Source: Dehalococcoidales bacterium
GTDB lineage: Bacteria > Chloroflexota > Dehalococcoidia > Dehalococcoidales > RBG-16-60-22
NCBI GenBank assembly: GCA_016930185.1
Contig: JAFGHK010000063.1
Span: 1 to 33,023 of the forward strand
Direction of reading: 5' to 3'
Length of the DNA stretch: 33,023 nt
The notes below the pieces were generated by a model, which did not search any database, was not told the origin of the DNA, and was given only the letters and a program-made list of their open reading frames with translations. Of this stretch, positions 1,104-26,577 are shown one piece after another; positions within the stretch are counted from its first letter, which is position 1; the number at the start of each line of letters is the position of its first letter. Both the position numbers and the translations under genes were made by a program.

Positions 1104-1131
1104 TTGACAAATGTATTCATAGGAGTATAAT
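1104..1131 (+). promoter_or_regulatory. Sigma70-type promoter of the ATPase cassette
   Basis: TTGACA at 1104-1109 and TATAAT at 1126-1131, separated by 16 bp; both hexamers match the consensus perfectly. They lie 33 bp upstream of the first cassette gene, exactly where the base composition turns AT-rich, which suggests the cassette carries its own promoter. Confidence 0.75.
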
Positions 1132-1164
1132 TTTAATTACCTTACATAATAAGGGGGCAATACC

Positions 1165-1359
1165 ATGTCAAAGGAAGAAGAGGAAGATACTTCCAAACCT
1201 ATTCCAGACCAAATATTTGAAGAAATGATTTCCGATGTTCGAAAACACCCTGAATTCGACACTGAATTGGTAAAAAAAGTTGAAAAACTTTACGCGAACG
1301 GCGGGTTACAGAAGGCTACAAAAATCATTGAGACTATAATACCCGAATTAGAGTCATAA
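1165..1359 (+). CDS. Small acidic helical protein, first gene of the ATPase cassette
   Basis: A 64-residue protein of unknown function. The first nine residues are strongly acidic (SKEEEED), followed by two predicted amphipathic helices, about 15-26 and 33-62. No signal peptide, membrane segment or metal motif is visible. The ATG at 1165 has a GGGGG Shine-Dalgarno-like tract eight bases upstream and is served by the promoter at 1104-1131. The stop codon ends one base before the ATG of the large ATPase gene, so the two are almost certainly co-transcribed and probably translationally coupled. Low GC matches the ATPase and not the left and right flanks. It could be a partner subunit, a regulator or an antitoxin-like factor; the sequence does not decide. 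Confidence 0.7.
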   Translation: MSKEEEEDTSKPIPDQIFEEMISDVRKHPEFDTELVKKVEKLYANGGLQKATKIIETIIPELES

Positions 1360-1360
1360 A

Positions 1361-3832
1361 ATGAAAATATTTGAATTAGACATTGAGAATGTGCGAGGAA
1401 TTCCAAATCTATCATTAAGACCTGGTGGGAAAAATCTTGTTGTCTGGGGATTAAATGGGTCGGGTAAGAGCGCAGTTGTAGATGCCATTGATTTTTTATT
1501 AACGGGTCACATATCGCGTTTAATTGGTGAGGGTACAGGTGATATATCGTTAGCCAAGCATGGACATCACATCCTGCATAAGCAAGAAGAGGCAATGGTA
1601 CGTGCTTTAATAAAATTAGATTTAGTAAAAGAACCCATTGAAATAAAACGGCACATGGATAAGCCTACAGATGTTGAGATAAATTGCGAAAAGGATTCGA
1701 AGGAATTTGTTGAATTTGTCCTTTGGAATGCCCAAAGAGGGCAGCATGTACTTGCTCGGCGTGAAATTTTAAAGTATATACACTCGGAAGCAGGAAATCG
1801 AGCAAAAAGAATTCAAGAATTATTAAATTTAAGTGATATTGAGAGTATTAGAGGCGCTCTTGTTTCGGTAAAACATAGAGCTGAGGAGGAAAATCGTACT
1901 TCTCAGCATGGTGTTAAAGTGGCAGAAGCAGCTATTAATCAAACGGTGGGTGAGAAGAGTTTTTCACAACAATCAATATTAGATTATTCCAATAAAAACC
2001 GAAAAACACTTGGAGGAAACGCTCTTACCAAGGTAACAACTATAAATATTCAAAAAGATATTAGGAAGCCTGCAGACTCGTCAAATGTGATAGGCATGAA
2101 TAGTGCACAATTTGATAGAGTGCTTGAAAACGTTAATTCAGAAATATCCCCTGAACAAAAAGAAAAAAGAGCAATAATCGATAAAAAATTAAGGAAGATT
2201 ATACAGGAAATAAGATCTGACAAGGATTCGCTGAAAAAATCTGCACGACTTCAATTGACTCAAGCAGGAATACGACTGATTGATACTGATGGTAGTTGTC
2301 CTCTATGTGATACTCCTTGGAAACCAGGGGAGTTATTGAATTATTTGAAAGAAAAAATTAAAAAAGGAAAGCAAATTGCCGAGAATAATGAGGCGATCAA
2401 TGAAATGTGCAATGAACTTTCAAGTCATTTCGAACAACTTAGTTCCAGTTTAAAAACGTTGATACAGGCAACTGCCAAGATTGAGTTGGTACAAGAGAAA
2501 GCCTTACTTGTGGAATGGTTGAAACAACTTGAGGGATTGTCGGTCTTAATAAATAATCCGATAGAAAAATACCCAATACAGGAAGAGGAAATTGATATAA
2601 TAACAAACTTAAAGGCATCCAAAAAAATAGATCAAGTTTTGGTCAATATTAAAAAGGTCGTGAAGGAAAGAGTTCCTGACCTAACCCCAGAATTAAGTGC
2701 TTGGACATCATTAGTACAACTAACCGAGAACTTAAAAGCTCTGGAAACAGCAAAAGTTAAACTTGAACAATCGAATAAATATTTGAAGAGAGCGACCATA
2801 TTACATGATAGTTTTCATACTGCGAGAGATAAAATAATGGGTGTTCTATATGACACAGTTCGAGATAGATTTGTAGAGTTATATCGACAACTTCACAATG
2901 AAGATGAAAGTAAGTTTACGGCAGTATTAAAACCTGTTGGTCCAGCTTTGGATTTTGAGGTAGACTTTTATAACTGTGGGAGTCATCCGCCACATGCCCT
3001 TCACAGTGAGGGGCATCAAGATAGCATGGGAATTTGTTTATATTTGGCATTAGCCGAAAATTTGAACAAAGGTTTGATAAACCTAATAATCCTCGATGAT
3101 GTAGTTATGTCTGTTGACAACGAGCACCGGAAGAAATTGTGTAGTCTTCTGTCCACATCTTTTCCGGAAAAGCAGTTCATTATAACCACACATGATAGAA
3201 CGTGGGCTAACCAATTGAAAGCTGAGGGGTTAGTAAAATCGAACGAACTAATAGAGTTCAATAATTGGAATATCGATACTGGGCCACAAGTTAGTTATGA
3301 CGTAATTCTATGGGATAAAATCGCAGAGTGCCTTGGAAAAGGAGATGTACCGAATGCCGCTTTTTATCTAAGAAGAGGATTAGAATCTTTCTTCTGTGAA
3401 ACATGCGACTCTTTAGAAGCGTCAATAAAGTATAATATACAACAGAAATGGGAACTAGGTGACTGGTGTCCAGCGGTGTTGAAACAATATCGTAATCTGG
3501 TCAAACAGGGGAAAAATGCAGCGAATTCATGGTCAGATGAAGAAGCCTTAAAAAAATTAGATGAAAGAGAGAAAATTTCAGCAGCGATATTTGAAACAAG
3601 TCAAGCTGAACAGTGGAATATTAACGAGGAAGTACATTATAACAGTTGGAAGGATTCTCAAAAAGAAGATTTCTATCCCGTTGTAGAGGCATTCAAAGAT
3701 TTATGTAGTTTGTTTGAATGTAGTAAATGTGGCTGTAAGCTAAAAGTAGTATCTGCTGATAAAGAAAAAACAAACGTCCGGTGCAGTTGTGGAAACGAAA
3801 ATTGGAATTTAACCGAAAAAAGAAAAAATTGA
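1361..3832 (+). CDS. SMC/Rad50/RloC-like AAA (ABC-type) ATPase with zinc hook and C-terminal zinc ribbon
   Basis: An 823-aa P-loop ATPase of the Rad50/RecF/SMC-like class. Walker A is GLNGSGKS at residues 30-37. A CPLC zinc-hook-like motif lies at 313-316 between two helical, charged stretches (about 150-305 and 330-490), so the coiled-coil arms are short. A signature-like segment HSEGHQDSMG precedes Walker B LIILDD (575-580) and the downstream VVMSVD, and a switch histidine lies in TTHD (H611). After the ATPase comes a roughly 200-residue helical module (about 625-780) and a zinc ribbon (C787-x2-C790, C808-x-C810). This layout recalls phage-defence and DNA-repair ATPases such as RloC, but no canonical HEPN RX4-6H, HNH or TOPRIM motif could be found. 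The gene is clearly more AT-rich than its neighbours, consistent with transfer. The ATPase class is secure; a defence role is inference. Confidence 0.8.
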   Translation: MKIFELDIENVRGIPNLSLRPGGKNLVVWGLNGSGKSAVVDAIDFLLTGHISRLIGEGTGDISLAKHGHHILHKQEEAMVRALIKLDLVKEPIEIKRHMDKPTDVEINCEKDSKEFVEFVLWNAQRGQHVLARREILKYIHSEAGNRAKRIQELLNLSDIESIRGALVSVKHRAEEENRTSQHGVKVAEAAINQTVGEKSFSQQSILDYSNKNRKTLGGNALTKVTTINIQKDIRKPADSSNVIGMNSAQFDRVLENVNSEISPEQKEKRAIIDKKLRKIIQEIRSDKDSLKKSARLQLTQAGIRLIDTDGSCPLCDTPWKPGELLNYLKEKIKKGKQIAENNEAINEMCNELSSHFEQLSSSLKTLIQATAKIELVQEKALLVEWLKQLEGLSVLINNPIEKYPIQEEEIDIITNLKASKKIDQVLVNIKKVVKERVPDLTPELSAWTSLVQLTENLKALETAKVKLEQSNKYLKRATILHDSFHTARDKIMGVLYDTVRDRFVELYRQLHNEDESKFTAVLKPVGPALDFEVDFYNCGSHPPHALHSEGHQDSMGICLYLALAENLNKGLINLIILDDVVMSVDNEHRKKLCSLLSTSFPEKQFIITTHDRTWANQLKAEGLVKSNELIEFNNWNIDTGPQVSYDVILWDKIAECLGKGDVPNAAFYLRRGLESFFCETCDSLEASIKYNIQQKWELGDWCPAVLKQYRNLVKQGKNAANSWSDEEALKKLDEREKISAAIFETSQAEQWNINEEVHYNSWKDSQKEDFYPVVEAFKDLCSLFECSKCGCKLKVVSADKEKTNVRCSCGNENWNLTEKRKN

Positions 3833-4245
3833 CTATTATCTCAATGTGACTAAAAATGTTTGTCCCCTCCCCCCGCGCCATTTTCCCCTTCACTTTCTCC
3901 CCTTAACCCCCCTATAATAGGGGAGAGACAGGGAGATTCAATACTGTAAGCTATCAACTCAACATAACAATTTAACATAACACTATAAAACGCAAAAACG
4001 AACCAGCTACGGCCCAAAGCTAAAACAACAAAAAAATTTTTCCCGAAAACAAATAAAACGAATAACCCTGAAGCTGATTAGCTATGGAAAAATCTTGAAA
4101 AAACGAATAAAATCTCGTCCCTTCCTCTTAACCTCTCCCTTGATGGGAGAGGAATGAAAAGGTGAGGGTGTCCTAACGGTGTGGAGTGGAGGTTTGGTGC
4201 TTGTATCTTGTGATTTGTATCTTACGTGCGGGGGTGGGGGTTTGG
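3833..4245. repeat. Gene-free spacer with inverted and short direct repeats
   Basis: No coding potential was seen. At 4132-4152 a perfect hairpin has arms CCTCTCCC (4132-4139) and GGGAGAGG (4145-4152), followed by GGTGAGGGTG, in the style of a dispersed intergenic repeat. A C-rich/G-rich hairpin lies around 3907-3924. Short direct repeats occur: AACATAACA at 3961 and 3974, AAACGAATAA at 4056 and 4101, and TTGTATCTTG at 4201 and 4263, the last copy already inside the 3' end of the next gene. The AT-rich part, 3930-4110, has the composition of the ATPase cassette and may be its trailing edge. Confidence 0.55.
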
Positions 4246-7200
4246 TTATTGTCCCTTGCTTCTTGTATCTTGCCTGCGCTTAAGCAGGTGTTCCCGTGCC
4301 TGCTGTATGAAAGCCTCGAACCTGATGCCCTCGCCCGGGTCCTTCGTCCCCTCCACCACCACGTTCAGCACCGGCAGCCCGTAGTCCTGGCGGAACTGGT
4401 GCAAAAGCAGGCTCACGATTGTCCCTGGCATGCACCCGAACGGTATGATGTTCACAACCCCGTCGAACCCGTGCTCCGCGTACTCCACGACCCTCCCCAT
4501 GCTCAAGATGGCCTCCCCCTCCACCGCCGGCGACAGGTACTTATGCCCCCGTTCGATTATCTTCTGCATCGGCAGCTCCCGCGTGAACAGCTCGATAGAG
4601 TCGTCGAACTGCCTCCGCAGCCGCTCCACCGTCGTCTCCATCACGATTTCCGTCAGCTTCTGCTTCGTCCAGTCCTTCCAGCCGCCTTCGATGCGATGGC
4701 TGTATCGGAATTCCCGCTCGTGGTCGATGTAGTCGAACCACTCCTCGATTGGCGGCACGCCCACCTGCGACCCCAGCGTCTCCAGCTTCTCGATAAGCCC
4801 GTCGTTGGCGAACCGGTTGCTCCTCACGAATATCTCCCCCACGATGCCGATTCGCGGCTTCGGCGAGCTCGTGTCTATCTTCACCGACTCAAAGGCGTGT
4901 TTGGCTTCGCTTGACAGCTTCTCCAGCACACTCACAGACTGCCCCACGTTCTGTATCAGCCGCTTCAGGTATTCTTCATAGACGGCGTCTATCTCGCCCG
5001 GGTTGACCTCGTAGGGCCTTCTTTCGTGCGTCATTTTCATCATGGAGTCCAGGATGATGAAACCCTTCCAGGCGTTGAGCCGGAACCCCTTGCCCATCGA
5101 TATCATGTCCTTGTGGTAGCCCCCGGTCTGGTCGAATACCAGCACCGGTACATTGGTGAGTCCCAGCTCGTCGAGTATCAGCCGGTGCAGCCGGTTATAC
5201 TGCCCGAAACGGCACGGCCCGCTGGCCGCCGGCATGAAAAACGCCGACTTCTCCGGTTCGAAGTCCGGCGCCATCGTCCTCTTTACGATGTCCCCGGTCG
5301 TGATGATGCTGGGGTAGCATTCCTTGCCCGTCGTGTACTTCCGCCCGATTTCCAGCGTCTGCTGGTTCGACTCCGGCAGGGGTTGGGCGTTTACCCCCCC
5401 ATGGCGCATCGCCGCCGCCAGTATGTACCCATGGTCTATCATGTACGGGATATAGACGATACGCTCGTTGGCGTGGTTCGATGATATGCTGATGTGCTGG
5501 ATGTATTTACTCGTGCCCTGTGTCTTAGCGTTACGTATCGTGTCGATGAAAGCCTCGCACCGCGTTATAACCCCTGCGTCGGCGGAATGCTCGTCGATTT
5601 CTATCGTCAGGAAGGGTTTGCCTTCCGTCTCTTTGCTGAAGAACTTCAGCAAATAGGAGTCTGGCCCGCAGTTAAAGTTCGTTACGTACAGCCCGAAAAG
5701 CCGCTTGTCCTGCGCAATCATTCTGGCCGCGCCCAGTATTTTCTGCCCGGCTTTCCAGTACATGTTCGGATGTGCTTTAATGACCTCTCCCGCCAGCGAC
5801 TGTAAAGGCAGGAAGTCCAGCGGTATCGCCAGCATATTCATGTCCCGCAGCTTTTCCGGGATATTCAGCGTCATCGCCTCGTCGTAGGTGTTATAGGCCC
5901 TTCCCACCACCACGATTGCTTTTTCATCGGGCTTTAGCTGGGAGAGTATTTCCTGCCCCCGCTTCTGCTGCCACTCATTGAACCTGTCGTATGCCTCGAA
6001 CCCTGCCTGAATCGCTTTATCTATCAGCGCGTTCGACTTTACACCGGCTTCGCGTGCCGTTTTCTTTAGGTTTTTCTTCAGCCATTTTCTGCCCCTGTCC
6101 GGGTGAGTGACCGTCCGCAGCACAACCGGGTGCTTGCCGTTCGAATCATTCAGGGCTTCTCTGATATGCGTGCTGCTAAGCACGAGGTAGGGCAGACTCT
6201 GCGTAAGCGGGCAGTTCCACGACTTTTTAAAGTCATCGGATAGCTTCTCCATAGTGCACTGCACCGGCATGAAGATATAGTCTGGCTTCTTTTCCAGTAG
6301 GTTTAGCATGTGCCCGTGCGACATTTTAATGGGCAGGCACGGCTCCTCCACGATATTCTCCACCCCCTGCCGGATAATGTGCCGGTTGGTGGGGTCGGAA
6401 AGCACCACCTGGAACCCTAATTCGGTGAAAAACCCTTTCCACAAAGGATAGAGTTCATGGAAGAACAGCGCTCTGGGGATGCCTACGGTCTTGCCGTTGG
6501 GTTTGTCCGGTTTGTCTTTCGGATATGTGTTCAGTAGAGCCTTAGCGCGTTCCTCGAAGAGGTGTGGCATCTTGGATAACTTCCTCTTCTCCTTCTTTTC
6601 CGTGCTGTCCCACTTGCCGCAGCGCGAACCGTAGAAAAGAGGTTTCTCCCCCTCGAATACCACTTTGTGGATTTCACACCTGTTGGAACAGCTCTGGCAT
6701 TCGAACGAGGAAAGCTCATACTTCCGTTCGGCAAGGTCGAATCCGCGGAAACGTGTCTTTTTACCGCTGGCTTCTATCTCCTCTTTAGCCAGCATGGCCA
6801 CCCCGATAGCCCCGAGGATGTCATGCTGGGGCGGCACATTCACTTTCTTGCCCAGGATGGCTTCAAAAGCAGCCTTAACAGCCCGGTTAAAGGCCGTCCC
6901 TCCCTGGAACAGGATATGCTCGCCGATTTTACGGTCTTCGACTACCTTGGTTAGGTAATTCTTTACCACCGAGTATGCCAGCCCGGCCACCAGGTCTTTC
7001 TTGTCGGCGCCGCGCTGTTTGCAGTAGTTCTGCTGGCTCTCCATGAAAACGGTGCAGCGCTCGCCCAGGTCCAGCGGGTGTTTTGACACTAGCCCCAGCT
7101 TCCCGAATTCTTCCTTGATACTTATTCCCAGCTTTTCCGCTTGCTCTTCAAGGAAAGAGCCGGTACCGGCAGCGCACACCTTATTCATCGCGAAGTCGAT

Positions 7201-8487
7201 AATCGTGCCGTTTTGCAGGCTGATGTATTTGGCATCCTGCCCGCCTATTTCAAAAATGGTATCTACTTCAGGGAAGACGAACGAAGCGGCTTTAGCATGG
7301 CTGGTAATTTCGTTATGGATAACATCGGCGCCGAAGAACTCGCCGGTCATGTACCGCCCGGAGCCGGTGGACCCGGTGCCCTTGATAATTACGCTGTCTC
7401 CCAGTTCCTGACCGACCTCTAGAAGACCCCGCTTGACGGCCTCGATTGGCTGGCTGGCGGTCATCAGGTAGCGCCTCGCCAGCACCTTGTTATCTTTATC
7501 AATCGCGACCACGTTGGTGCTGATAGAGCCTATATCCACGCCGATGTAGGCTTCAACAGATTTACCGGCATCCGGTTTTACTGACTCGATATCAATCGGG
7601 TAATCGTCTCCTTGCAGCGGGGGTAGCGTAACAAACTCATATTTGCGACTGGTAATATAATCTTTCAAGCGCTGGATAGCGTTTTGCGGTAATGTGCCAT
7701 TCTCGCTGGCCAGTGCCGCACCACTAGCCCCGAGGACGGCAAAGTGTTGGGGGATTATCAAGTCATTTTCTTCTAGTTCCAGTACTTCCAGCAGGGCCCG
7801 CCGTATGCCTTTATTAGCTGCCACACCCCCCTGGAAGGAGATAGGCTTGCAGAGGTCACGGCCCCGGATGACCTGTCCTTTATAGTTCCGTATCATCGCA
7901 AAGCATAAACCGGCTACGATGTCATGGACTGGAGTGCCCACTTGCTGCAGGTGAATCATGTCGCTCTTGGCGAAGACGCTGCAGCGGCCGGCTACGCGGG
8001 GCGGGTGTTCCGACTTCAAGGCAACGTCACCGAACTGCTCGATAGGGATACCCATGCGCGAAGCTTGCTGGTCGAGGAAGGAGCCCGTGCCGGCTGCGCA
8101 AACACCGTTAATGGCAAAGTCGCTTACTTTGGGCAGTTTCTCACCGGGCTCTTTTTGCAGGACGATGAGCTTGGAGTCTTCACCGCCTATTTCAAGCACC
8201 GTTTGTACTTCGGGATGAAAATGGGCGGCTCCGGCTGCCTGGGCTGTAATTTCGTTTACGAACGGTATATCCAGCAGGGACGCGATAAGCTGCCCTCCCG
8301 TGCCGGTGGCAGCCGCCGCTTTGAATCTTGCTGGCGGGTGTTTTGCCAGCAGCTCCTCTAAAATTGCCAGGATGGTTTCGACGGGCTGTCCTTTAGTGCG
8401 GACATACCTCGATTCGATGATATTGCTATCATCATCAAGGACTACTGCTTTAGCGGTTACCGAGCCTATATCAATACCGAGTTTCAT
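4246..8487 (-). CDS. 2-hydroxyacyl-CoA dehydratase activase family protein, double ASKHA ATPase fused to DUF2229/HgdB-like region
   Basis: A 1413-aa protein of the BadF/BadG/BcrA/HgdC activase superfamily. It has two complete ASKHA ATPase units in tandem. Unit 1 (about 1-265) has phosphate-1 motif GIDIGS and cluster cysteines C130 (CAAGTGSF) and C169 (GRCSVF). Unit 2 (about 314-570) has GVDIGS and C438 and C478. A four-cysteine knot follows (C597, C600, C604, C623), then a DUF2229 region from about 667, then an HgdB-like C-terminal third containing GCMPGT. In the family, activases bind one [4Fe-4S] cluster per homodimer and use ATP hydrolysis to inject an electron into a dehydratase or reductase. 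Here activator and acceptor-like parts are on one chain. Proteins of this length are known but lack an assigned substrate. No separate hgdAB or bcrBC genes are nearby. The start is the ATG at 8487, downstream of a good promoter; no strong Shine-Dalgarno sequence is visible. Confidence 0.88.
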   Translation of the reverse strand: MKLGIDIGSVTAKAVVLDDDSNIIESRYVRTKGQPVETILAILEELLAKHPPARFKAAAATGTGGQLIASLLDIPFVNEITAQAAGAAHFHPEVQTVLEIGGEDSKLIVLQKEPGEKLPKVSDFAINGVCAAGTGSFLDQQASRMGIPIEQFGDVALKSEHPPRVAGRCSVFAKSDMIHLQQVGTPVHDIVAGLCFAMIRNYKGQVIRGRDLCKPISFQGGVAANKGIRRALLEVLELEENDLIIPQHFAVLGASGAALASENGTLPQNAIQRLKDYITSRKYEFVTLPPLQGDDYPIDIESVKPDAGKSVEAYIGVDIGSISTNVVAIDKDNKVLARRYLMTASQPIEAVKRGLLEVGQELGDSVIIKGTGSTGSGRYMTGEFFGADVIHNEITSHAKAASFVFPEVDTIFEIGGQDAKYISLQNGTIIDFAMNKVCAAGTGSFLEEQAEKLGISIKEEFGKLGLVSKHPLDLGERCTVFMESQQNYCKQRGADKKDLVAGLAYSVVKNYLTKVVEDRKIGEHILFQGGTAFNRAVKAAFEAILGKKVNVPPQHDILGAIGVAMLAKEEIEASGKKTRFRGFDLAERKYELSSFECQSCSNRCEIHKVVFEGEKPLFYGSRCGKWDSTEKKEKRKLSKMPHLFEERAKALLNTYPKDKPDKPNGKTVGIPRALFFHELYPLWKGFFTELGFQVVLSDPTNRHIIRQGVENIVEEPCLPIKMSHGHMLNLLEKKPDYIFMPVQCTMEKLSDDFKKSWNCPLTQSLPYLVLSSTHIREALNDSNGKHPVVLRTVTHPDRGRKWLKKNLKKTAREAGVKSNALIDKAIQAGFEAYDRFNEWQQKRGQEILSQLKPDEKAIVVVGRAYNTYDEAMTLNIPEKLRDMNMLAIPLDFLPLQSLAGEVIKAHPNMYWKAGQKILGAARMIAQDKRLFGLYVTNFNCGPDSYLLKFFSKETEGKPFLTIEIDEHSADAGVITRCEAFIDTIRNAKTQGTSKYIQHISISSNHANERIVYIPYMIDHGYILAAAMRHGGVNAQPLPESNQQTLEIGRKYTTGKECYPSIITTGDIVKRTMAPDFEPEKSAFFMPAASGPCRFGQYNRLHRLILDELGLTNVPVLVFDQTGGYHKDMISMGKGFRLNAWKGFIILDSMMKMTHERRPYEVNPGEIDAVYEEYLKRLIQNVGQSVSVLEKLSSEAKHAFESVKIDTSSPKPRIGIVGEIFVRSNRFANDGLIEKLETLGSQVGVPPIEEWFDYIDHEREFRYSHRIEGGWKDWTKQKLTEIVMETTVERLRRQFDDSIELFTRELPMQKIIERGHKYLSPAVEGEAILSMGRVVEYAEHGFDGVVNIIPFGCMPGTIVSLLLHQFRQDYGLPVLNVVVEGTKDPGEGIRFEAFIQQAREHLLKRRQDTRSKGQ

Positions 8488-12035: not shown

Positions 12036-13316
12036 CTAGATATTTACTTCTTCATTCCAGTCCAGCATTAGCGCCTGGACGGTATCGCCTTTATTTACTC
12101 TTTTAGTATCTTCCGGTATAATCACCAGGCCGTTAGCCAGGCTCATGGACGAAAGTATCCCCGAGCCCTGCGGGCCGGTCAACCTGGCATAGTAGTGTCC
12201 GTTACGTTTCTCGATAATTGCCCGGTCGTAGATACGCCTGCCGGCATTATTTTTAATTGTATCTTCAATAATCACGTCTATTGAGGGTTTGGCCAGGTTC
12301 TGCTTGCCCATCATTTTCAGCAGGGCAGGCCGCACGAAAAGCTCGAAGCTGACCATACAGCTGGTGACATTGCCCGGTAGTCCCAGATGGGGTATGCTTT
12401 TTGCCTTGCCGTTCCTGTCTTTGCCTTTTATCTTCCCGAAGGCCAAAGGTTTTCCCGGCTTTACGCGTACTTTCCAGAAGACCATTTCGCCATCCCTGGC
12501 CAGGATATCCTTCACCATGTCGTAATCGCCCATGGAGACCCCGCCGGTCGTCAGCAAAACATCTGCATCCTGCACCTGCTTCAGCTTTTTTACCAGTTCC
12601 TTTTCGTTGTCGCGTGCTATCCCCAGCATTCTAGGAATACCGCCGTAACGTTTGACCAGCCCGGCGATGCTATAAGCATTACTGTCGTGTATCTTGCCTT
12701 CGGGCAATGGTTTATCTAATTCTACTAGCTCGTCTCCTGTTGAAAGAATCGCTACAACTGGACGTCTGATTACTTTGACCTGACTCCGCCCGGCGGAAGC
12801 CATCAGTCCTATTTCCTGTGGTCTGATAACGGTCCCCTTTTTCAAAGTTGTCTTACCTTGAGCAATATCCTCTCCCGCCAGCCTGATATTCTGCCCGGGC
12901 TTTGTCTCGGCGAAGATAGACACCTGTCCTGGTCGCTGATTTGAAGAGGCATCTTTATTCTTTTGGTCGTCGGTGTCTTCAAACTGCACCACACTATCGG
13001 CGCCGGAGGGTATAGGGGCTCCGGTCATAATACGGATTGCAGTCCCCGGTACCACTTCTTTTTTAGAGATACCTCCGGCCACTACCGTATCGGTTACCTT
13101 GAGTGTTATTGGCGCTTTTTCATTCGCCCCTCTGGTGTCTTCCGACCGTACGGCAAAACCGTCCATGGCGGAATTATCCAGAGGCGGCACGTTGATATTA
13201 GAGACAATATCCTCGGCGAGAACCTGTCCCAGTGCTTCCATGATGGGGACAGTCTCCTCCTCCAGCACATTAACCTCGGCGAGTATCTTTTGCAGCGCTT
13301 CTTCAACGGTTAGCAT
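12036..13316 (-). CDS. moeA: Molybdopterin molybdenumtransferase MoeA
   Basis: A 426-aa protein, slightly longer than the usual 390-410. It inserts molybdate (or tungstate) into adenylylated molybdopterin. The order of motifs is as in the family: PPLDNSAMDGFAV (about 43-55), the Pro/Gly-rich TGAPIPSGADSVVQFE, a short extra linker (DDQKNKDASSNQRPGQ), then GDELV, HDSNAYSIAGLVKRYGG, the catalytic-domain signature TTGGVSMGDYDMVKD, and the GLPGNVTSC segment, and a C-terminal beta-barrel domain IV. The gene is two bases downstream of mobA. The Gln/Asn/Lys-rich insert around residues 115-130 is probably a surface loop. Confidence 0.94.
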   Translation of the reverse strand: MLTVEEALQKILAEVNVLEEETVPIMEALGQVLAEDIVSNINVPPLDNSAMDGFAVRSEDTRGANEKAPITLKVTDTVVAGGISKKEVVPGTAIRIMTGAPIPSGADSVVQFEDTDDQKNKDASSNQRPGQVSIFAETKPGQNIRLAGEDIAQGKTTLKKGTVIRPQEIGLMASAGRSQVKVIRRPVVAILSTGDELVELDKPLPEGKIHDSNAYSIAGLVKRYGGIPRMLGIARDNEKELVKKLKQVQDADVLLTTGGVSMGDYDMVKDILARDGEMVFWKVRVKPGKPLAFGKIKGKDRNGKAKSIPHLGLPGNVTSCMVSFELFVRPALLKMMGKQNLAKPSIDVIIEDTIKNNAGRRIYDRAIIEKRNGHYYARLTGPQGSGILSSMSLANGLVIIPEDTKRVNKGDTVQALMLDWNEEVNI

Positions 13317-13318
13317 TA

Positions 13319-13924
13319 CTATGTGGCTCCTCTAGCTATCGATTTCGCTTTTTCCAAATCTTCAATTGTGTTGATGTTAAAGAAACTCAGGTGTTTCGGG
13401 TCGAATCTGTCTATCTCCTCGGCTTCTATAAATTTGACCTTGACATAGTCAAATAGTTCAATAATTACTTTTTTGCCTTGTTCCAGTATTGAGTTAATGG
13501 GGCTAATGCAGTTTTTTGAATATATGGCATGCAACGGCTCGTATAATTTATTAACACGCGGTAGTATAAAATCATAACCGTCCGCAACCTTTATCATATA
13601 TCGCAACAATGGCTCGTTTAAAAATGGCATATCCGCAGCCACAACAAGATTATAAAACGAATCTGATTTTACTAATCCGGTATATATACCGCCTAAAGAA
13701 CCTTGCCCGGGGAAAATATCATTTACAATTTTTACTTTTATGTTTTTAGCTATACGGGTAAAGGCCCTCTCTTTCGCTGTAACTATTATTATTTCTTTGC
13801 TGATTGGGTCTATGAGGGATATTGCTTTTTCAAGCAGACTTGTGTTGCCGATTCTTTCTAATATTTTGTCGTGACCGAAGCGTATGCTTCTACCACCGGC
13901 TAGGATAATACAGCTTATATCCAA
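13319..13924 (-). CDS. mobA: Molybdenum cofactor guanylyltransferase MobA
   Basis: A 201-aa nucleotidyltransferase that transfers GMP from GTP to molybdopterin, giving the MGD cofactor of DMSO-reductase-family enzymes. The N-terminal nucleotide-binding loop is ILAGGRSIRFGHDK (6-19), a variant of the consensus LAGGxSxRMGxDK with Phe for Met. The VVAADMPFLNEPLL segment holds the metal-binding aspartate and substrate loop, and FFNINTIEDLEKAK closes the protein as in the family. It is the first gene of the four-gene minus-strand set and has its own promoter upstream. AT content is higher than in moeA. Confidence 0.92.
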   Translation of the reverse strand: MDISCIILAGGRSIRFGHDKILERIGNTSLLEKAISLIDPISKEIIIVTAKERAFTRIAKNIKVKIVNDIFPGQGSLGGIYTGLVKSDSFYNLVVAADMPFLNEPLLRYMIKVADGYDFILPRVNKLYEPLHAIYSKNCISPINSILEQGKKVIIELFDYVKVKFIEAEEIDRFDPKHLSFFNINTIEDLEKAKSIARGAT

Positions 13925-13960
13925 ATCGTCTGCCTGTTTTTAAACGCGAACGTAACCCCC

Positions 13961-13988
13961 TATATACTATTCTATCATAAAAAGTCAA
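13961..13988 (-). promoter_or_regulatory. Promoter of the mobA-moeA-mobB-DUF362 operon
   Basis: On the minus strand, TTGACT (13988-13983) and TATATA (13966-13961) are spaced by 16 bp, some 40 bases upstream of the mobA start. No ModE-like palindrome was seen here. Confidence 0.55.
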
Positions 13989-14007
13989 GAGAAAATAGAT
14001 GTAGTTT

Positions 14008-15309
14008 TTACGCTTTTCGGATTTGTTTGACTCGGGGATATTCCCAGTTCGTGTTATCGATGACCATATCCACTACTTTAGTAGGGGGATATTTCTTCAT
14101 ATATTTTACCTGCGCCGGTAGGTATTTTTCATCGTACTTACTTACATTTGCCTCTGAATCTCTTATAATAGCCCGTCTTTTGCTTTCTTCCAGCGGGATA
14201 TCGAGGAACACTTTATAGTCGATATATGAGTCTAATTCTTTCCTGAATAAAAATACTCCTTCAAAGATTACCATCGAATCTCGGTCTATTGAATATACCC
14301 TATCGACTTCATATTCATCCGTATCCGGGTCCAGAGCCTTGAGGCTTAATGATAAAGGTTTTTTTTCTTTGATAGGGGAAAGTAACTTCTCGATAATCAG
14401 ACCTGTATTAAAGCTGTTATTATAGTAATTATCTGCTTGGTCGGTGCCGGAATACCGAATCACCTTCGGGTTATGAAAGTCGTCCAGATGTATTAACTGC
14501 GTCTGGTGCCCATTTGTCTTAAAGTAAGTCTCCAGTGCCGATGCAAATTCCGTTTTCCCCGCCCCGTCAATCCCGTTTATCCCGATGATGAAAGCTTTAT
14601 CTTCCCGTTTTCTCTGCCTTATCTCTTCCTTAATCCTCTCAAAAATCGGCAGTTTACGGTCGAAGATAAAAAGAAGTTCGTCGAATTTATCAATCGAGAT
14701 ATCCGCCTGCTTAGGTTCGTCTCCACCGTATCCGAAGAGAACTCCGATGGACAAAGAATCCGTATCCCTGGCAGCCTCGATATCGTGAGACCTGTCGCCG
14801 ACCACCGCCGCCGTCAATCCCCCGAATTTTTCCTTGATTTTCCTGACAAGTTCCGGCTTGGTCAGATTGTTATGCTGTATGCATTCTATATAGTCTAAGT
14901 ACTCCCTGATGTTCAATGATGACATGACTATATCAAGGTACATTGCGGATGCGTTGGTATATTGCGCCAGCTTATAGCCGCGCTTTCTCAAGGTTGACAG
15001 CGTTTTCTTTACGCCAGGGTAAGGCTGTGCCATGTCGCGGAATGTGCCTTCATATTCTTTACGCACCCTTTCCCTGACCTCATCAATAGACAACTTGCTA
15101 TCCAGCGGCGTGATGAACTCGTAAAGACTGCCTTTAGCTGACGCCGTTGTTATCCCGAAGAACTGATTGATATCGTCCGGACTGAACTTTACCGGCCACC
15201 CCAGTTTGTTAAAGGCTCTCTTTACCGACTCATAAACGGCGGGAAGAGAAGGAATGATTGTCCCGTCCATATCAAAGATAATCAGGTTGACGTCGTTGGG
15301 ATTTATCAT
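14008..15309 (-). CDS. Fusion of HAD-family phosphatase and uridine-kinase-like P-loop domain
   Basis: A 433-aa two-domain protein. The N-terminal domain (about 6-215) is a HAD hydrolase of the phosphoglycolate-phosphatase type: motif I DMDGT (D13 and D15), motif II in YTNAS (T118), a lysine in the LTKPELV segment, and motif IV GDRSHDIEAA (D172, D176). The C-terminal domain (about 238-433) is a uridine-kinase/phosphoribulokinase-like P-loop kinase: Walker A GINGIDGAGKT (243-253), then HLDDFHNPKV and a VIFEGVFLF segment. Coupling a phosphatase to a kinase suggests handling of nucleotide or sugar phosphates, but the substrate is unknown. The ATG at 15309 overlaps the methyltransferase stop (TGATG), so translation is probably coupled. 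Confidence 0.85.
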   Translation of the reverse strand: MINPNDVNLIIFDMDGTIIPSLPAVYESVKRAFNKLGWPVKFSPDDINQFFGITTASAKGSLYEFITPLDSKLSIDEVRERVRKEYEGTFRDMAQPYPGVKKTLSTLRKRGYKLAQYTNASAMYLDIVMSSLNIREYLDYIECIQHNNLTKPELVRKIKEKFGGLTAAVVGDRSHDIEAARDTDSLSIGVLFGYGGDEPKQADISIDKFDELLFIFDRKLPIFERIKEEIRQRKREDKAFIIGINGIDGAGKTEFASALETYFKTNGHQTQLIHLDDFHNPKVIRYSGTDQADNYYNNSFNTGLIIEKLLSPIKEKKPLSLSLKALDPDTDEYEVDRVYSIDRDSMVIFEGVFLFRKELDSYIDYKVFLDIPLEESKRRAIIRDSEANVSKYDEKYLPAQVKYMKKYPPTKVVDMVIDNTNWEYPRVKQIRKA

Positions 15310-15935
15310 CAGGTTTTTCTAACGTAAATATAGCGCAATATATGGGTATGAGGACCGCTGCCGTGGTTTTCAGGGTCTTCCATAATGCCCGTTTCCAGTA
15401 TTTCCATGTTCTTGAAGTACGCCTTGAGGTCATCTTCATCAAAGTAATGGACAGGGCGGCCGGGCTTGCTTTCAAAAGTGTTTTTCTCTACTTGTTTGCC
15501 TTTGCCGTAGCTTTCCTCTTTTTCCGAAAAGACGGTGAAAAACATAAGCCCCTGTTTCTTTATCCTCCTGACGCATTGGTCGATAAAAAGTGGCCGGTCA
15601 TAATCACGGAAAAAATGGAGTACACTGTGACAATATAAAGCATCATAATTGTGTGCAAGGAAAGACATATCAAGAACGGTATCGTTAAATATCCTGGTAG
15701 CCGGGTCGAAACTGCGCGCTATATTACAGGCTTTTTCTGATATTTCAACACCCGCTACTTTGATGCCGGACGCCGAAAATAACCTTGTGTTCCTGCCGTA
15801 GCCTGACCCTGGCACCAGCAGCTTCTTGACATCATGGTCTTTAAAGAGCTGCAAAACGTATTCGGCAGTACGACTGGGTGTTTCGCCCCAGATTTTATCT
15901 TCCGTTATAAACCTGTTTTCCCAGTATTCGCTCAA
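15309..15935 (-). CDS. Class I SAM-dependent methyltransferase (TehB/TPMT-like)
   Basis: A 208-aa cytosolic methyltransferase. The N-terminus YWENRF-x-IWGETPSR is typical of the thiopurine-methyltransferase/TehB-like group. The SAM-binding glycine motif is VPGSGYGRNTRLF (41-53), followed by the acidic VAGVEIS strand and a YDALYCHSVLHFF motif IV region. The C-terminal part HYFDEDDLKAYFKNMEILETG is also family-like. In relatives the acceptor is a thiol, selenium or tellurium compound, or a small toxic molecule; no acceptor can be assigned here. It lies 13 bases after the metallo-hydrolase gene and overlaps the downstream fusion gene by one base. Confidence 0.85.
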   Translation of the reverse strand: MSEYWENRFITEDKIWGETPSRTAEYVLQLFKDHDVKKLLVPGSGYGRNTRLFSASGIKVAGVEISEKACNIARSFDPATRIFNDTVLDMSFLAHNYDALYCHSVLHFFRDYDRPLFIDQCVRRIKKQGLMFFTVFSEKEESYGKGKQVEKNTFESKPGRPVHYFDEDDLKAYFKNMEILETGIMEDPENHGSGPHTHILRYIYVRKT

Positions 15936-23447: not shown

Positions 23448-25066
23448 TCCTTTATCAGTGAATCCCAGGGCGTTTCCATTTGCGGTACCGGTATCTCAAT
23501 TAGGACAGGGCGGTTGGCTTTAAGAGCTTCGCCGAGCTTTTTACCCAGCTCCTCACGTTTTTCCACCCTTATCCCTATGGCCCCGAAAGCCTCGGCGAAT
23601 TTTACATAATCGGGGTTGTGTAACTTATCACCGATATACCTCCCCCCGAACTGCCGACGCTGGATGCCGCTGACCGTCCCGTAGGCGTTATCGGTGAAAA
23701 TAAGAGTAACCACGTTTATCTTTTCCTGTACGGCCGTGGCCAGTTCTGCGGAGGCGTATGAGAAACCACCATCCCCGCATATCGCCACTACGGCTCTGTC
23801 CGGGTTGGCTACCTTTGCGCCGAGAGCAGTTGGGAAAGCAAAGCCCAGCGTACCGAAATATGAGGAATCTACATAGCTTCGTATACGATTGACCGGGTAG
23901 GCGATGTCACACCAGTGACCGATGATAGTTACGTCCGGCACGATTATGCTGTCATCCCCAAGTGCCTCGTGAATTATATTGATAATAGACATTTGTAAAG
24001 GCCCAGCTTTTTCCAGCTTTCTCTTCAGTCCGTCGCGCAGACGGGTAATCTCTGCTTCCTGCCAGCGGCTTGCGTTTTTCTTGTCAAGCGTCTGCAACAG
24101 GGCCTTAAGTGTTAACCCTGCATCGGCGGAAATTCCTGTCTCGATACGGTGGTTTTTCCCCAGCTCTCCGGCGTCGCAGTCTACCTGGATTACTTTTTGT
24201 TCGTATTTAAGTTCGAGTTGGGTGCTGCCGGAAGCTCGCAGCCGACTGCCCACCACCAGAATGGCATCAGCTTCTTTGAAAAATGGATTGAGCCATAGAG
24301 TGAAATTGCCCCCATAAAACGGGTGGTCGTACGGTATCAGCCCCTGTCCCTCCGGTGTCATGACCACTGGTGCCCTTAGTCGCTCGGCCAGTTGCGTGAT
24401 TTCTTTGGTAACACCGGCTTTGACCGCCCCCCGCCCCGCCAGAATAATCGGGTGTTGGGCGCTGACCATTGTTTTTACTACTTTTTTAATATCCTCCGGT
24501 TCCGGCGGAATTGGTTCCAGTCTTTCCGTGCTGGTGAATGTCATTTCTCCCCGCTTTGACCACAGGTCGTAGGGAACTTCTATTTCCGTCGGTTGGGGCC
24601 GCTGGGTCTTAAGCTGGCGTAGGGCGTGGCAGAGAATATCCGGGATGTCCTCCGCCCGTGTTGCCCGGCTACAGTATTTGGTAAGGTAGCGGAAGATATC
24701 GATTTGCTCATCAAGTTCGTGAAGGACTCCCCGGTGGAAGCCTATGTGCTGGCTTTCTATCTGCCCCGATATCAGCAGTACTGGTGCTGATGCAGCGTAG
24801 GCTGTGCCGATGGCGGCTGCCGTATTTAGAGCCCCAGGACCGGGCAATACCATGGCTACACCTATTTTACCGGTGGTCATTGCGTAACCGAAGGCCATAT
24901 AGGCGGCGGTCTGTTCGTGGCGGGTGGATATCCAGCGGATGCTTTTATCGCGATATATAGCGTCCAGCGCGTCCATAATCTGAACGCCTGGCAGCCCGAA
25001 AATAACCTTTGTTTCCTCACGGACTAATAATTCTACCAGTGCTTCGGCCCCGCTCATTCTAGTCAT
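23444..25066 (-). CDS. Thiamine-diphosphate-dependent enzyme, acetolactate-synthase-like
   Basis: A 540-aa ThDP enzyme with the three-domain POX/AHAS layout. The Pyr domain has the catalytic glutamate E51 in RHEQTAAYMAFG. The central domain contains PIILAGRGAVKAG. The PP domain has the ThDP/Mg motif beginning CGDGGFSYASAELATA and ending FTDN. It is somewhat shorter than typical AHAS large subunits (560-590), and no ilvN regulatory subunit or ilvC follows, so it may be a relative such as an oxalyl-CoA-decarboxylase- or benzoylformate-decarboxylase-like enzyme rather than a true IlvB. The genuine substrate cannot be told. It is convergent with the SDR gene and seems to be a single gene. Confidence 0.88.
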   Translation of the reverse strand: MTRMSGAEALVELLVREETKVIFGLPGVQIMDALDAIYRDKSIRWISTRHEQTAAYMAFGYAMTTGKIGVAMVLPGPGALNTAAAIGTAYAASAPVLLISGQIESQHIGFHRGVLHELDEQIDIFRYLTKYCSRATRAEDIPDILCHALRQLKTQRPQPTEIEVPYDLWSKRGEMTFTSTERLEPIPPEPEDIKKVVKTMVSAQHPIILAGRGAVKAGVTKEITQLAERLRAPVVMTPEGQGLIPYDHPFYGGNFTLWLNPFFKEADAILVVGSRLRASGSTQLELKYEQKVIQVDCDAGELGKNHRIETGISADAGLTLKALLQTLDKKNASRWQEAEITRLRDGLKRKLEKAGPLQMSIINIIHEALGDDSIIVPDVTIIGHWCDIAYPVNRIRSYVDSSYFGTLGFAFPTALGAKVANPDRAVVAICGDGGFSYASAELATAVQEKINVVTLIFTDNAYGTVSGIQRRQFGGRYIGDKLHNPDYVKFAEAFGAIGIRVEKREELGKKLGEALKANRPVLIEIPVPQMETPWDSLIKD

Positions 25067-25289
25067 AATTAGCCTCCATACCGTATATGGGCTTGTGGTT
25101 ATTATTATAGTATAAATCGTTTAACCAGGTAATAAGCAGAAGTCAAGCACTCAAGGATATTCCATTAGTTAAAGGGTTTTTTAATAGAGCCTACTAACCG
25201 CATGCAGGTATAAATTGATGGCAAATATATAATATTTGCGGGGGAATTAGGGTAGGATTAACATTGGCTGGAGCTTTTCAACTGCGTAT

Positions 25290-25595
25290 CTATTTATCTG
25301 GGGTAAGAATTCTTATAAGAAATGTCTTATTAACCAGGTTCTTTATAATTTTGATTTGAGCTGTCTCCTGTGCTAGGCGGTTACGACGGTAGTCAACCCA
25401 CCTTTCTATTTCTGTGTTAGCTATACCTAGCGACTGTGCTATCTTGATCGTTTCATCTGTAATCTTCTTAGTATAACCTGTATTCTCTTCAATTCTAGCC
25501 CGCACCCCACTAGCGATCGCCTCCATGTTACTCATTAGTATCGTTTCTGTATTAAAGGGTGAACTTTGTGCAATGCTCGTACTAAAGTTGTCCAT
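25290..25595 (-). CDS. Hypothetical helical protein in AT-rich patch
   Basis: A 101-aa protein with no recognised family. It has a polar N-terminus (about 1-20), a central helical part with SGVRARIEENTGYTKKITDETIKIAQSLGIANTEIERWVDYRRNRLAQE, and a basic-hydrophobic C-terminal helix. No signal peptide or catalytic motif is visible. The GAAAGG Shine-Dalgarno sequence, nine bases before the ATG at 25595, is part of an inverted repeat that may regulate translation. It lies downstream of the HTH gene on the same strand and may form a unit with it. Base composition is more AT-rich than in the flanking metabolic genes. Confidence 0.6.
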   Translation of the reverse strand: MDNFSTSIAQSSPFNTETILMSNMEAIASGVRARIEENTGYTKKITDETIKIAQSLGIANTEIERWVDYRRNRLAQETAQIKIIKNLVNKTFLIRILTPDK

Positions 25596-25604
25596 ATATA
25601 CTTG

Positions 25605-25646
25605 CCTTTCAAAAGTATGTTGATTATATTTGAAAGGATACCTTTC
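25605..25646 (-). promoter_or_regulatory. Putative SD-sequestering hairpin switch
   Basis: Read 5' to 3' on the minus strand there are three alternating segments: GAAAGG (25646-25641), CCTTTCAAA (25637-25629) and TTTGAAAGG (25613-25605). Segment 3 contains the Shine-Dalgarno sequence of the 101-aa gene. Segment 2 can pair perfectly either with 1 (3-base loop) or with 3 (9 bp, 15-base loop). The second fold would hide the ribosome-binding site. Confidence 0.5.
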
Positions 25647-25690
25647 TATTTTTATGCCCTCAACAGGTTCTCTGTTTCCTCCGTGTGTTC

Positions 25691-25909
25691 TTACTCTTCA
25701 AAAGGCCAGCCTTTTACGGGCATGTTGAATTTTTCCAGGAATGTCTTAAAATCATTTTTATCAATACGATAGTGTCCGCTTGGCAGACGGAAAGCCTTTA
25801 GCCTTTTACTCTTTATCCATTCCAGCACGGTGCTTTTACTTACCTGGCAATAGGATGCGATGTCTCTTGATGTTAGTCTTGTTATTTCGGGTCTTTTTTT
25901 AGCTGGCAC
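25691..25909 (-). CDS. Small HTH (excisionase/MerR-like) DNA-binding protein
   Basis: A 72-aa protein if translation starts at the GTG at 25909, which has an AAGGAG Shine-Dalgarno sequence seven bases upstream; a GTG at 25927 would add six residues but cuts into that Shine-Dalgarno sequence. The core LTSRDIASYCQVSKSTVLEWIKSKRLKAFRLPSGHYRIDKNDFKTFLEKF is an HTH_17/MerR-like domain with a wing (about residues 9-60). Such small proteins act as excisionases of mobile elements or as BldC-like regulators. No integrase is in the window. The divergent intergenic region upstream holds helically phased ATCACAA boxes that are plausible binding sites. Confidence 0.75.
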   Translation of the reverse strand: MPAKKRPEITRLTSRDIASYCQVSKSTVLEWIKSKRLKAFRLPSGHYRIDKNDFKTFLEKFNMPVKGWPFEE

Positions 25910-26013
25910 GGTTGGACTCCTTTCCACCGATGCGGCGATGTGTTGTTTGTTTTTTGTGTTTTTAACGAAGTTTGCGTATTATACATATAATAGATATGGC
26001 GTGTAACAAATAA

Positions 26014-26107
26014 ATCACAAAAAATGAGTGAATTATCACAAAATAATCACAAATATTGTTATTTTATATTTAGATATCACAATCAATCACAGTCTCTCTG
26101 ATGTGAT
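26014..26107. promoter_or_regulatory. Array of helically phased ATCACAA boxes
   Basis: Direct copies of ATCACAA start at 26014, 26035, 26046 and 26076, and an ATCACAG starts at 26086. Offsets are 0, 21, 32, 62 and 72 bp, all close to multiples of 10.5, so the boxes lie on one face of the helix. Inverted copies occur at 26102-26107 (TGTGAT) and 26171-26177 (TTGTGAT, overlapping the modE start). The array sits between the divergent HTH gene and modE. Confidence 0.6.
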
Positions 26108-26132
26108 GCATACTCATTCTTGTTTGACAATG

Positions 26133-26156
26133 CGTTATATTGTTGATAATATAGTA
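26133..26156. promoter_or_regulatory. ModE-box-like palindrome upstream of modE
   Basis: CGTTATA (26133-26139), a 10-base spacer, then TATAGTA (26150-26156). This fits the E. coli ModE operator layout CGxTATA-N10-TATAxCG with a degenerate right end. It lies 17 bases upstream of the modE GTG, consistent with autoregulation. Confidence 0.6.
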
Positions 26157-26172
26157 TGTCTGGAACATCTTT

Positions 26173-26577
26173 GTGATGAGTAGAAAAAAAGTAAATCAAG
26201 ACTTCGTGCCTGAATTCGGCATAAAACATGGTTCCCGCTCCGGTCACAAACCGGAGTCCGGCATCGTGTTAAAGAGTAAAGTCTGGCTGGAAAAAGACGG
26301 CAAGCTGTTCATGGGCTACGGCAGGGCAACGTTACTGGAACGTATCGACCAGTTTGGCTCAATATCTGCCGCCGCCCGATCGATGAAATTGGCCTACCGC
26401 AATGCCTGGCTTTGGGTGGAAGCTATCAACCGCCTGGCGCCTAAACCGCTAGTAGTAAAGTCAACCGGTGGACCGCGTGGCGGCTACGCACGACTGACAG
26501 AGGAAGGCCGCCGTATAATCAAGGAATACAAGGAAAAGCGCGCCAGTGTCCGTGAGGTTATTGAGAAAAGGAAATAA
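26173..26577 (+). CDS. modE: ModE-type molybdate regulator, DNA-binding domain only
   Basis: A 134-aa winged-helix protein from the GTG at 26173 (the ATG at 26176 is an alternative, two residues apart when counted with the GTG). Residues about 30-125 match the ModE N-terminal domain: SKVWLEKDGKLFMGYGRATLLERIDQFGSISAAARSMKLAYRNAWLWVEAINR and the wing STGGPRGGYARLTEEG. The C-terminal Mop/TOBE molybdate-binding pair of full-length ModE (about 260 aa) is absent. The adjacent TOBE-containing ATPase ModC could provide sensing, but this is inference. ModE-like palindromes lie upstream of this gene and of modB. No strong Shine-Dalgarno sequence is visible. Confidence 0.85.
   Translation: MMSRKKVNQDFVPEFGIKHGSRSGHKPESGIVLKSKVWLEKDGKLFMGYGRATLLERIDQFGSISAAARSMKLAYRNAWLWVEAINRLAPKPLVVKSTGGPRGGYARLTEEGRRIIKEYKEKRASVREVIEKRK

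Follow-up and report, generated by a model that had tools for sequence, protein, structure and literature searches.

The stretch of DNA analyzed here (the window) is the whole 33-kb contig C89 (33,023 nucleotides (nt), JAFGHK010000063.1) from a Dehalococcoidales genome bin of 1.8 Mb in 104 contigs (GCA_016930185.1). A first, sequence-only reading had pointed out a cassette at positions 1104 to 3832, consisting of a consensus promoter, a gene for a peptide of 64 amino acids (aa) and, one base later, a gene for an 823-aa Rad50-like ATPase, and had taken it for a possible undescribed defense or DNA-processing system. We found all three elements where they had been placed and examined the two gene products and their relatives. 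The cassette contains the following features, with motif conservation in the ATPase core taken from an alignment of 76 sequences.

1041-1097 (no strand): 57-nt element at the left cassette edge, just before the promoter; it borders the alternative cassette of a sister species on the left as well
1104-1131 (+): sigma-70-type promoter, TTGACA-16-TATAAT, perfect 12/12
1151-1157 (+): Shine-Dalgarno-like AAGGGGG, from the sequence
1165-1359 (+): small partner gene, 64 aa, from the list of open reading frames (ORFs) and family conservation
1361-3832 (+): Rad50/SMC-like ABC ATPase, 823 aa, with C-terminal HEPN-like domain and zinc ribbon
1448-1471 (+): Walker A, residues 30-37, near-invariant
2297-2308 (+): zinc hook C313-P-L-C316, both Cys 100% conserved; family form C-P-x-C
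3002-3031 (+): ABC signature, residues 548-557, HSEGHQDSMG, invariant bar S555
3092-3118 (+): Walker B/D-loop, residues 578-586, LDDVVMSVD; D579, D580, V581 and D586 invariant
3188-3193 (+): switch (H-loop), T610-H611, near-invariant
3293-3712 (+): C-terminal HEPN-like helical domain, about residues 645-784; AlphaFold2 (AF2) model of residues 634-823 with predicted local distance difference test (pLDDT) score 87 and predicted template modeling (pTM) score 0.82
3371-3385 (+): R671-x3-E675, first half of a PrrC/RloC-like motif; R and E 100% conserved and the same in PrrC/RloC
3623-3637 (+): N755-x3-H759, second motif half; both residues 100% conserved; distant relatives read RN-x4-H here
3719-3790 (+): C4 zinc ribbon, C787, C790, C808 and C810; four Cys 100% conserved, strands in the model

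Both genes had been described as more AT-rich than their surroundings, and measurement bore this out. The GC content of the cassette is 36.4%. The contig as a whole has 47.6%, no stretch of the same length beyond 4.2 kb falls below 42.1%, and GC at third codon positions is 0.29 in the ATPase gene versus 0.47 to 0.71 in ten other genes. Repeats lie on both sides, as had also been noted: the 57-nt element on the left, with one extra genomic copy only (on C85), and a 48-nt tandem repeat at 4183-4278. The perfect promoter is unique in the window on both strands and occurs 8 times in 4.04 million strand-bases of other loci. Two further AT-rich stretches (GC 0.36 to 0.40 in 500-nt windows) were seen at 13251-14250 and 25001-26250.

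Comparison of the 823-aa protein with Pfam supported the ATPase assignment (SMC_N, 2.4e-16; AAA_23, 4.3e-8), and the nearest solved structures by sequence are archaeal Rad50 chains (2.8e-7). In PADLOC it gave only partial matches to several ATPase models (mad3, AriA, PtuA and GajA). An assignment to MADS via mad3 (5.5e-18) was rejected, since mad3 also matched two random control proteins, which marks the hit as a generic ATPase match. Septu, PARIS and Gabija were set aside as well, because their partner genes are missing; the cassette is flanked by a radical-SAM-type gene and an activase gene. Elsewhere in the window, a 208-aa ORF (15312-15935, minus strand) shows a partial PADLOC mad2 match (7.7e-14), probably to a generic domain.

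Conserved pairing of the two genes had been named in the sequence-only reading as support for such a system, and it was found. An ORF of 50 to 85 residues was present at the junction in 76 of the 78 loci where the ATPase start could be placed, overlapping the ATPase gene by exactly 4 nt in 47 loci and by 14 nt in 16; in L077, one of the two remaining loci, the small ORF is present and interrupted by masked bases. Among 429 neighboring genes used as a control, any such junction ORF was found for 91, and at the 4- or 14-nt offsets for 35. In leave-out cross-validation, a hidden Markov model (HMM) of the small ORFs recovered 72/75 at E<1e-3 and 75/75 at E<1, whereas none of 2,067 decoys, ORFs of comparable length in the same loci, matched at E<1e-3. 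This shows, at the level of sequence, that the junction ORFs form a single protein family. On plasmids, 14 of 18 loci match the HMM at E<1e-5; the other four are two truncated haloarchaeal copies and two of a distant Bacteroidota subfamily, in which the small ORF is recognized by position. In this sister subfamily (L106:4691-7304 and L133), an overlapping small ORF of about 80 aa upstream of the ATPase is too divergent for the HMM, and its presence suggests that the pairing is older than the family. We also came across Sinorhizobium meliloti ABC ATPases of about 950 aa (L107:4503-7442 and L135:3587-6442). The L107 protein has R-x3-E...N-x3-H without the zinc ribbon, a small gene was not seen there, and the N-terminal extension of these ATPases might be a fused partner.

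The 64-aa protein is predicted to be a three-helix protein, with helices at residues 13-26, 33-44 and 51-63 of the AF2 model (pLDDT 78). Searches of 62 small proteins against Pfam returned nothing solid and no ABC-3C model among the matches, the 64-aa protein had no match in PADLOC, and a structure search with its model gave no result.

The sequence-only reading had found no known effector motif. This stands for HNH, TOPRIM and RX4-6H, but the R-x3-E...N-x3-H tail, the zinc hook and the zinc ribbon had been overlooked. Residues 634-823 are modeled as a confident helical bundle followed by short zinc-ribbon strands, and 12 positions of the C-terminal part are invariant among 69 sequences, including R671, E675, N755, H759 and the four cysteines. 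In PrrC and RloC, an R-E-H triad (R320, E324 and H356 in PrrC; R692, E696 and H737 in RloC) is experimentally required (PMC2610378). The PrrC and RloC sequences that we collected contain R-x3-E and, in nearly all cases, [N/H]-x3-H; one collected PrrC lies directly 3' of a type I restriction-modification specificity gene, as PrrC should. The same signature (LRKEAES...LNSTSH) was observed in another Rad50-like ATPase family from Flavobacterium (L116:886-2778, minus strand), where an additional C-terminal domain follows it.

The motif of active HEPN RNases is RX4-6H (PMC3710099). Distant relatives of the ATPase from Hymenobacter, Fibrella and Streptomyces have RNEVGAH or RNAVGAH, which fits this motif, at the site where the window family reads [IV]N-x-x-V-H. 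The family HMM spans the Hymenobacter (4e-58) and Streptomyces (2e-36) proteins from the ATPase through the C terminus, and hhalign aligned the C-terminal domains of the two groups with a probability of 96.7 (E 4e-10). Since these motifs stand at the aligned site, the best reading of the window domain is that of an HEPN-type RNase in which the arginine would be supplied by the R-x3-E helix. Three results weigh against it. The arginine of the canonical RX4-6H is missing in the window protein itself; hhalign of the C-terminal profile with PrrC/RloC aligned only 31 columns, those of the R-x3-E helix, and weakly (P 0.008); and a Foldseek search of PDB and BFVD with the C-terminal model returned no significant match. 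The second PDB hit, 2q00, which we take to be an HEPN-clan protein, was not significant (E 1.2). Because the fold search gave no confirmation, we regard the RNase assignment as no more than probable. Pfam returned nothing solid for the C-terminal domain of 69 members, and a PrrC-like protein had no match in PDB by sequence.

A DNA-acting defense complex was considered as an alternative, in which the proteins would, in the manner of Wadjet or Rad50, be loaded onto foreign DNA, and the C-terminal domain and its zinc ribbon would act by binding or cutting DNA, not RNA. The zinc hook and the Rad50-like body fit such a role, C4 zinc ribbons often bind nucleic acids, and copies truncated before the C-terminal domain persist. 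Nevertheless, R-x3-E...N-x3-H and RN-x4-H are the RNase motifs of PrrC, RloC and HEPN proteins, and the unit contains neither a DNA-nuclease motif nor an Mre11-like gene, which makes this explanation a rather improbable one.

The truncated copies were found in Natrinema (L009:8753-10890) and Halomontanus (L103:6753-8899). In both, the small partner is kept, the whole HEPN-like domain and the zinc ribbon are missing and the protein stops after the ATPase; no common downstream gene takes the place of the effector. Retention of the small gene in these two related copies indicates that the small protein is more likely a sensing or regulatory subunit of the ATPase than a plain antitoxin of the RNase. 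It also counts against a toxin-antitoxin unit, in which the small protein would directly neutralize the HEPN-like RNase and the module would mainly stabilize plasmids and islands. Such a unit would account for a small gene that lies upstream of a toxin-like gene and is translationally coupled to it, and for the many plasmid copies, some of them beside conjugation genes. However, the ATPase makes up most of the 823 residues and defense genes surround the chromosomal copies, so that we consider a toxin-antitoxin function unlikely, if somewhat less so than the DNA-acting complex.

Furthermore, we analyzed the neighborhoods of the pair, since a location in defense islands had been named as support for a defense system. 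In Halorhabdus tiamatea, the pair lies within a BREX-5 operon, between pglX and pglZ. Single loci place it near AbiEi/AbiEii and an Abi protein, near DUF262 and HipA, near DarT, TIR and RES proteins, near an N6-methylase and a patatin gene, near a DUF499 gene or, in L104, near a BPTD_3080 restriction enzyme, while some plasmid copies adjoin conjugation or metabolic genes. Known defense genes were also more frequent in the flanks than in random regions: scanning about 130 ORFs per set with PADLOC at E<1e-25, and counting families and not proteins, we obtained 98 and 119 in two flank sets and 26 in a random-region set of like size. The flank families include type I, II, IIG and III restriction-modification, Hachiman, Hma, PD-Lambda-5, PD-T4-6, SoFic and MADS; in the random set, Cas1 models accounted for 21 of the 25 PADLOC matches listed, with one matching protein each. 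Two points count against a defense role. The random set draws on few genomes, mostly small ones of Chloroflexota, and is imperfectly matched, so that the excess, counted by family, is only indicative, and no other clear defense gene was found on the window contig among the genes tested.

The locus itself provides a further line of evidence. Its edges and flanking genes are as follows.

13-819: left flank, DUF4070 gene of the radical-SAM type
3871-3923 (no strand): right edge, sequence common to the alternative locus of the sister species, 85% match to L176:2553-2606
4246-8487 (-): right flank, CoA-enzyme activase gene, 1413 residues

A species of the same genus (G003) has the same two flanking genes in the same order, with 86% and 92% DNA identity. 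Between them, the cassette is replaced by a gene on the opposite strand for a 439-aa N6/N4 DNA methyltransferase (L176:1129-2448, on G003:C52; PADLOC MTase_II, 1.8e-65). The 57-nt element matches L176:1002-1058 at 87.7%, and both inserts begin right after this element and end right before the common short sequence. With the cassette and the methyltransferase between the same flanks and edges, the slot looks like a swap site for defense-type genes. The C terminus of the methyltransferase carries a GGVDG...IQVK stretch resembling a PD-(D/E)XK nuclease, and the protein is possibly a single-chain restriction-modification enzyme.

Relatives of the ATPase were collected by scanning a species-genome collection with an eight-member alignment pattern. 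This yielded 248 relatives, distributed over many phyla of bacteria and several of archaea; 80 of these relatives were fetched, and the pattern scan also found two in viral contigs; L090 is a 50-kb IMG/VR contig with the pair near one end. An alignment query was required, as single-sequence scans of the genome and viral collections found no relatives, and none was found in annotated phages. With tblastn, 35 plasmid records were obtained; in 19, the match extends over 80% or more of the protein (about 22 to 33% identity). As annotated, these records have a short ORF directly adjoining the ATPase gene. Closer to the window genome the distribution is sparse: a search of 60 of its relatives returned one clear ATPase copy and one marginal 55-residue match, and 4 of 400 members of the phylum carry the ATPase, the window's own genome included. 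The nearest ATPase relatives include Dehalococcoidia and other Chloroflexota, which in the tree are interleaved with ANME-1, Thermoplasmatota and Lokiarchaeota bins. Near-identical copies in Propionibacterium, Gordonia, Tessaracoccus and Kocuria records (L054, L055, L058 and L063) indicate recent transfer across actinobacterial families. Together with the mixing of phyla and domains in the tree, in which many members are metagenome bins, they point to frequent transfer. The pair is thus an old, mobile and conserved module.

This distribution also bears on the simplest alternative, a housekeeping or repair ATPase of the Rad50/SbcC/RecF kind with the small gene adjacent by chance. The archaeal Rad50 chains as best PDB relatives and the automatic double-strand break repair annotation of the relatives would agree with it. 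Against this stand the patchy spread, the intermixed phyla and domains, the lack of Mre11/SbcD in the unit, the defense neighbors and the exchange with a methyltransferase, and we consider a housekeeping role very improbable. A Rad50/SbcC repair complex was likewise rejected, as no Mre11/SbcD gene belonging to the unit was present in the loci inspected; in L104, a separate YhaN/exonuclease set lies nearby on the opposite strand. ATPase homologues in conserved housekeeping contexts and a 64-aa frame without conservation, the two findings named beforehand as contradicting a defense system, were both looked for, and neither occurred.

Of the known systems, RloC, a Rad50-like ATPase that ends in an anticodon nuclease, shares with the window ATPase an N-terminal ABC ATPase, a zinc-hook CxxC and a C-terminal helical domain with an R-x3-E...H triad. 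In contrast to RloC, the window family has a C4 zinc ribbon, a near-obligate small partner gene and an ABC signature of its own, HSEGHQDSMG, and E and H are 84 residues apart in the window protein and 41 in RloC. By family model RloC was ruled out: AAA_13 did not match the window ATPase at E<=1, whereas an RloC gave 4e-209. No AAA_13 protein was found in the window genome either, so there is no second RloC that could be confused with the cassette. An extra, long AAA_13-like ATPase (1208-aa frame) was noted in the genome of L016 (L115, G456:C25). PrrC, the HEPN anticodon nuclease of type I restriction-modification operons, also carries R-x3-E...N-x3-H behind an ABC ATPase, but it is without zinc hook and ribbon, and what holds it is a linked type I restriction enzyme in place of a dedicated small partner.

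Lamassu (ABC-3C), with the effector LmuA, the small middle component LmuC and the SMC-like ATPase LmuB, shares the SMC-like ATPase and a small upstream gene in a defense setting. Here, however, ATPase and effector-like domain are fused in one protein, the small protein has no match among known families and LmuB models match only partly; Lamassu was rejected since there is no separate LmuA effector, no LmuC-type small protein and no third gene in the unit. In the DndD/CxC ABC ATPase and DndE, too, a Rad50-like ATPase is obligately paired with a small protein. Unlike them, the window unit is without DNA-modification genes and its C terminus is RNase-like. DndE has two ribbon-helix-helix domains (PMC10853773), while the window's small protein is predicted to have three helices and no strands. 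By analogy, the pair may work like an RloC with a Lamassu- or Dnd-style partner. No PADLOC, Pfam or NCBIfam family covers the pair among the models tested, and we found no description of it in the open-access literature searched; the clade may have a name in a 2020 classification of ABC ATPases.

Taken together, pairing and context support the proposed defense system, although that proposal was incomplete because it named no effector; the likely one is the PrrC/RloC-like HEPN domain. We therefore favor, with reasonable though not high confidence, a horizontally mobile two-gene anti-phage (abortive-infection) module of RloC-like logic, distinguished by its obligate small partner and its zinc ribbon; that the pair protects against phages is inferred from its genomic context. 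In this module, the 64-residue helical protein would be an obligate subunit of the ATPase, in keeping with the conserved pairing of the genes, and the complex would probably sense DNA that is foreign or damaged, a role also proposed for RloC and Lamassu. An ATP-driven rearrangement may then release the C-terminal HEPN-like RNase domain, with its conserved site of R671, E675, N755 and H759 and its C4 zinc ribbon, and this domain, once free, would cleave RNA, possibly in the anticodon loops of tRNAs, and bring the infected cell to arrest. More tentatively, and with somewhat less than even expectation, we propose an undescribed anti-phage system that occurs in bacteria as well as archaea, with ANME-1 and Lokiarchaeota bins among its carriers. 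It would combine in one machine a sensor of the Rad50 type, a three-helix protein as obligate subunit and a fused RNase whose HEPN site is rearranged, the catalytic arginine coming from the R-x3-E helix instead of RX4-6H.

If this is true, a widespread system without a PADLOC, Pfam or NCBIfam model would join the ABC-ATPase/HEPN branch of immunity, which is best known from PrrC and RloC, and would connect this branch with Lamassu and Dnd through their partner-protein logic. The two-gene form would make it testable how Rad50-like proteins sense infection, by deletion or exchange of a single small subunit, and the occurrence in anaerobic archaea and candidate phyla would widen the known reach of such defenses.
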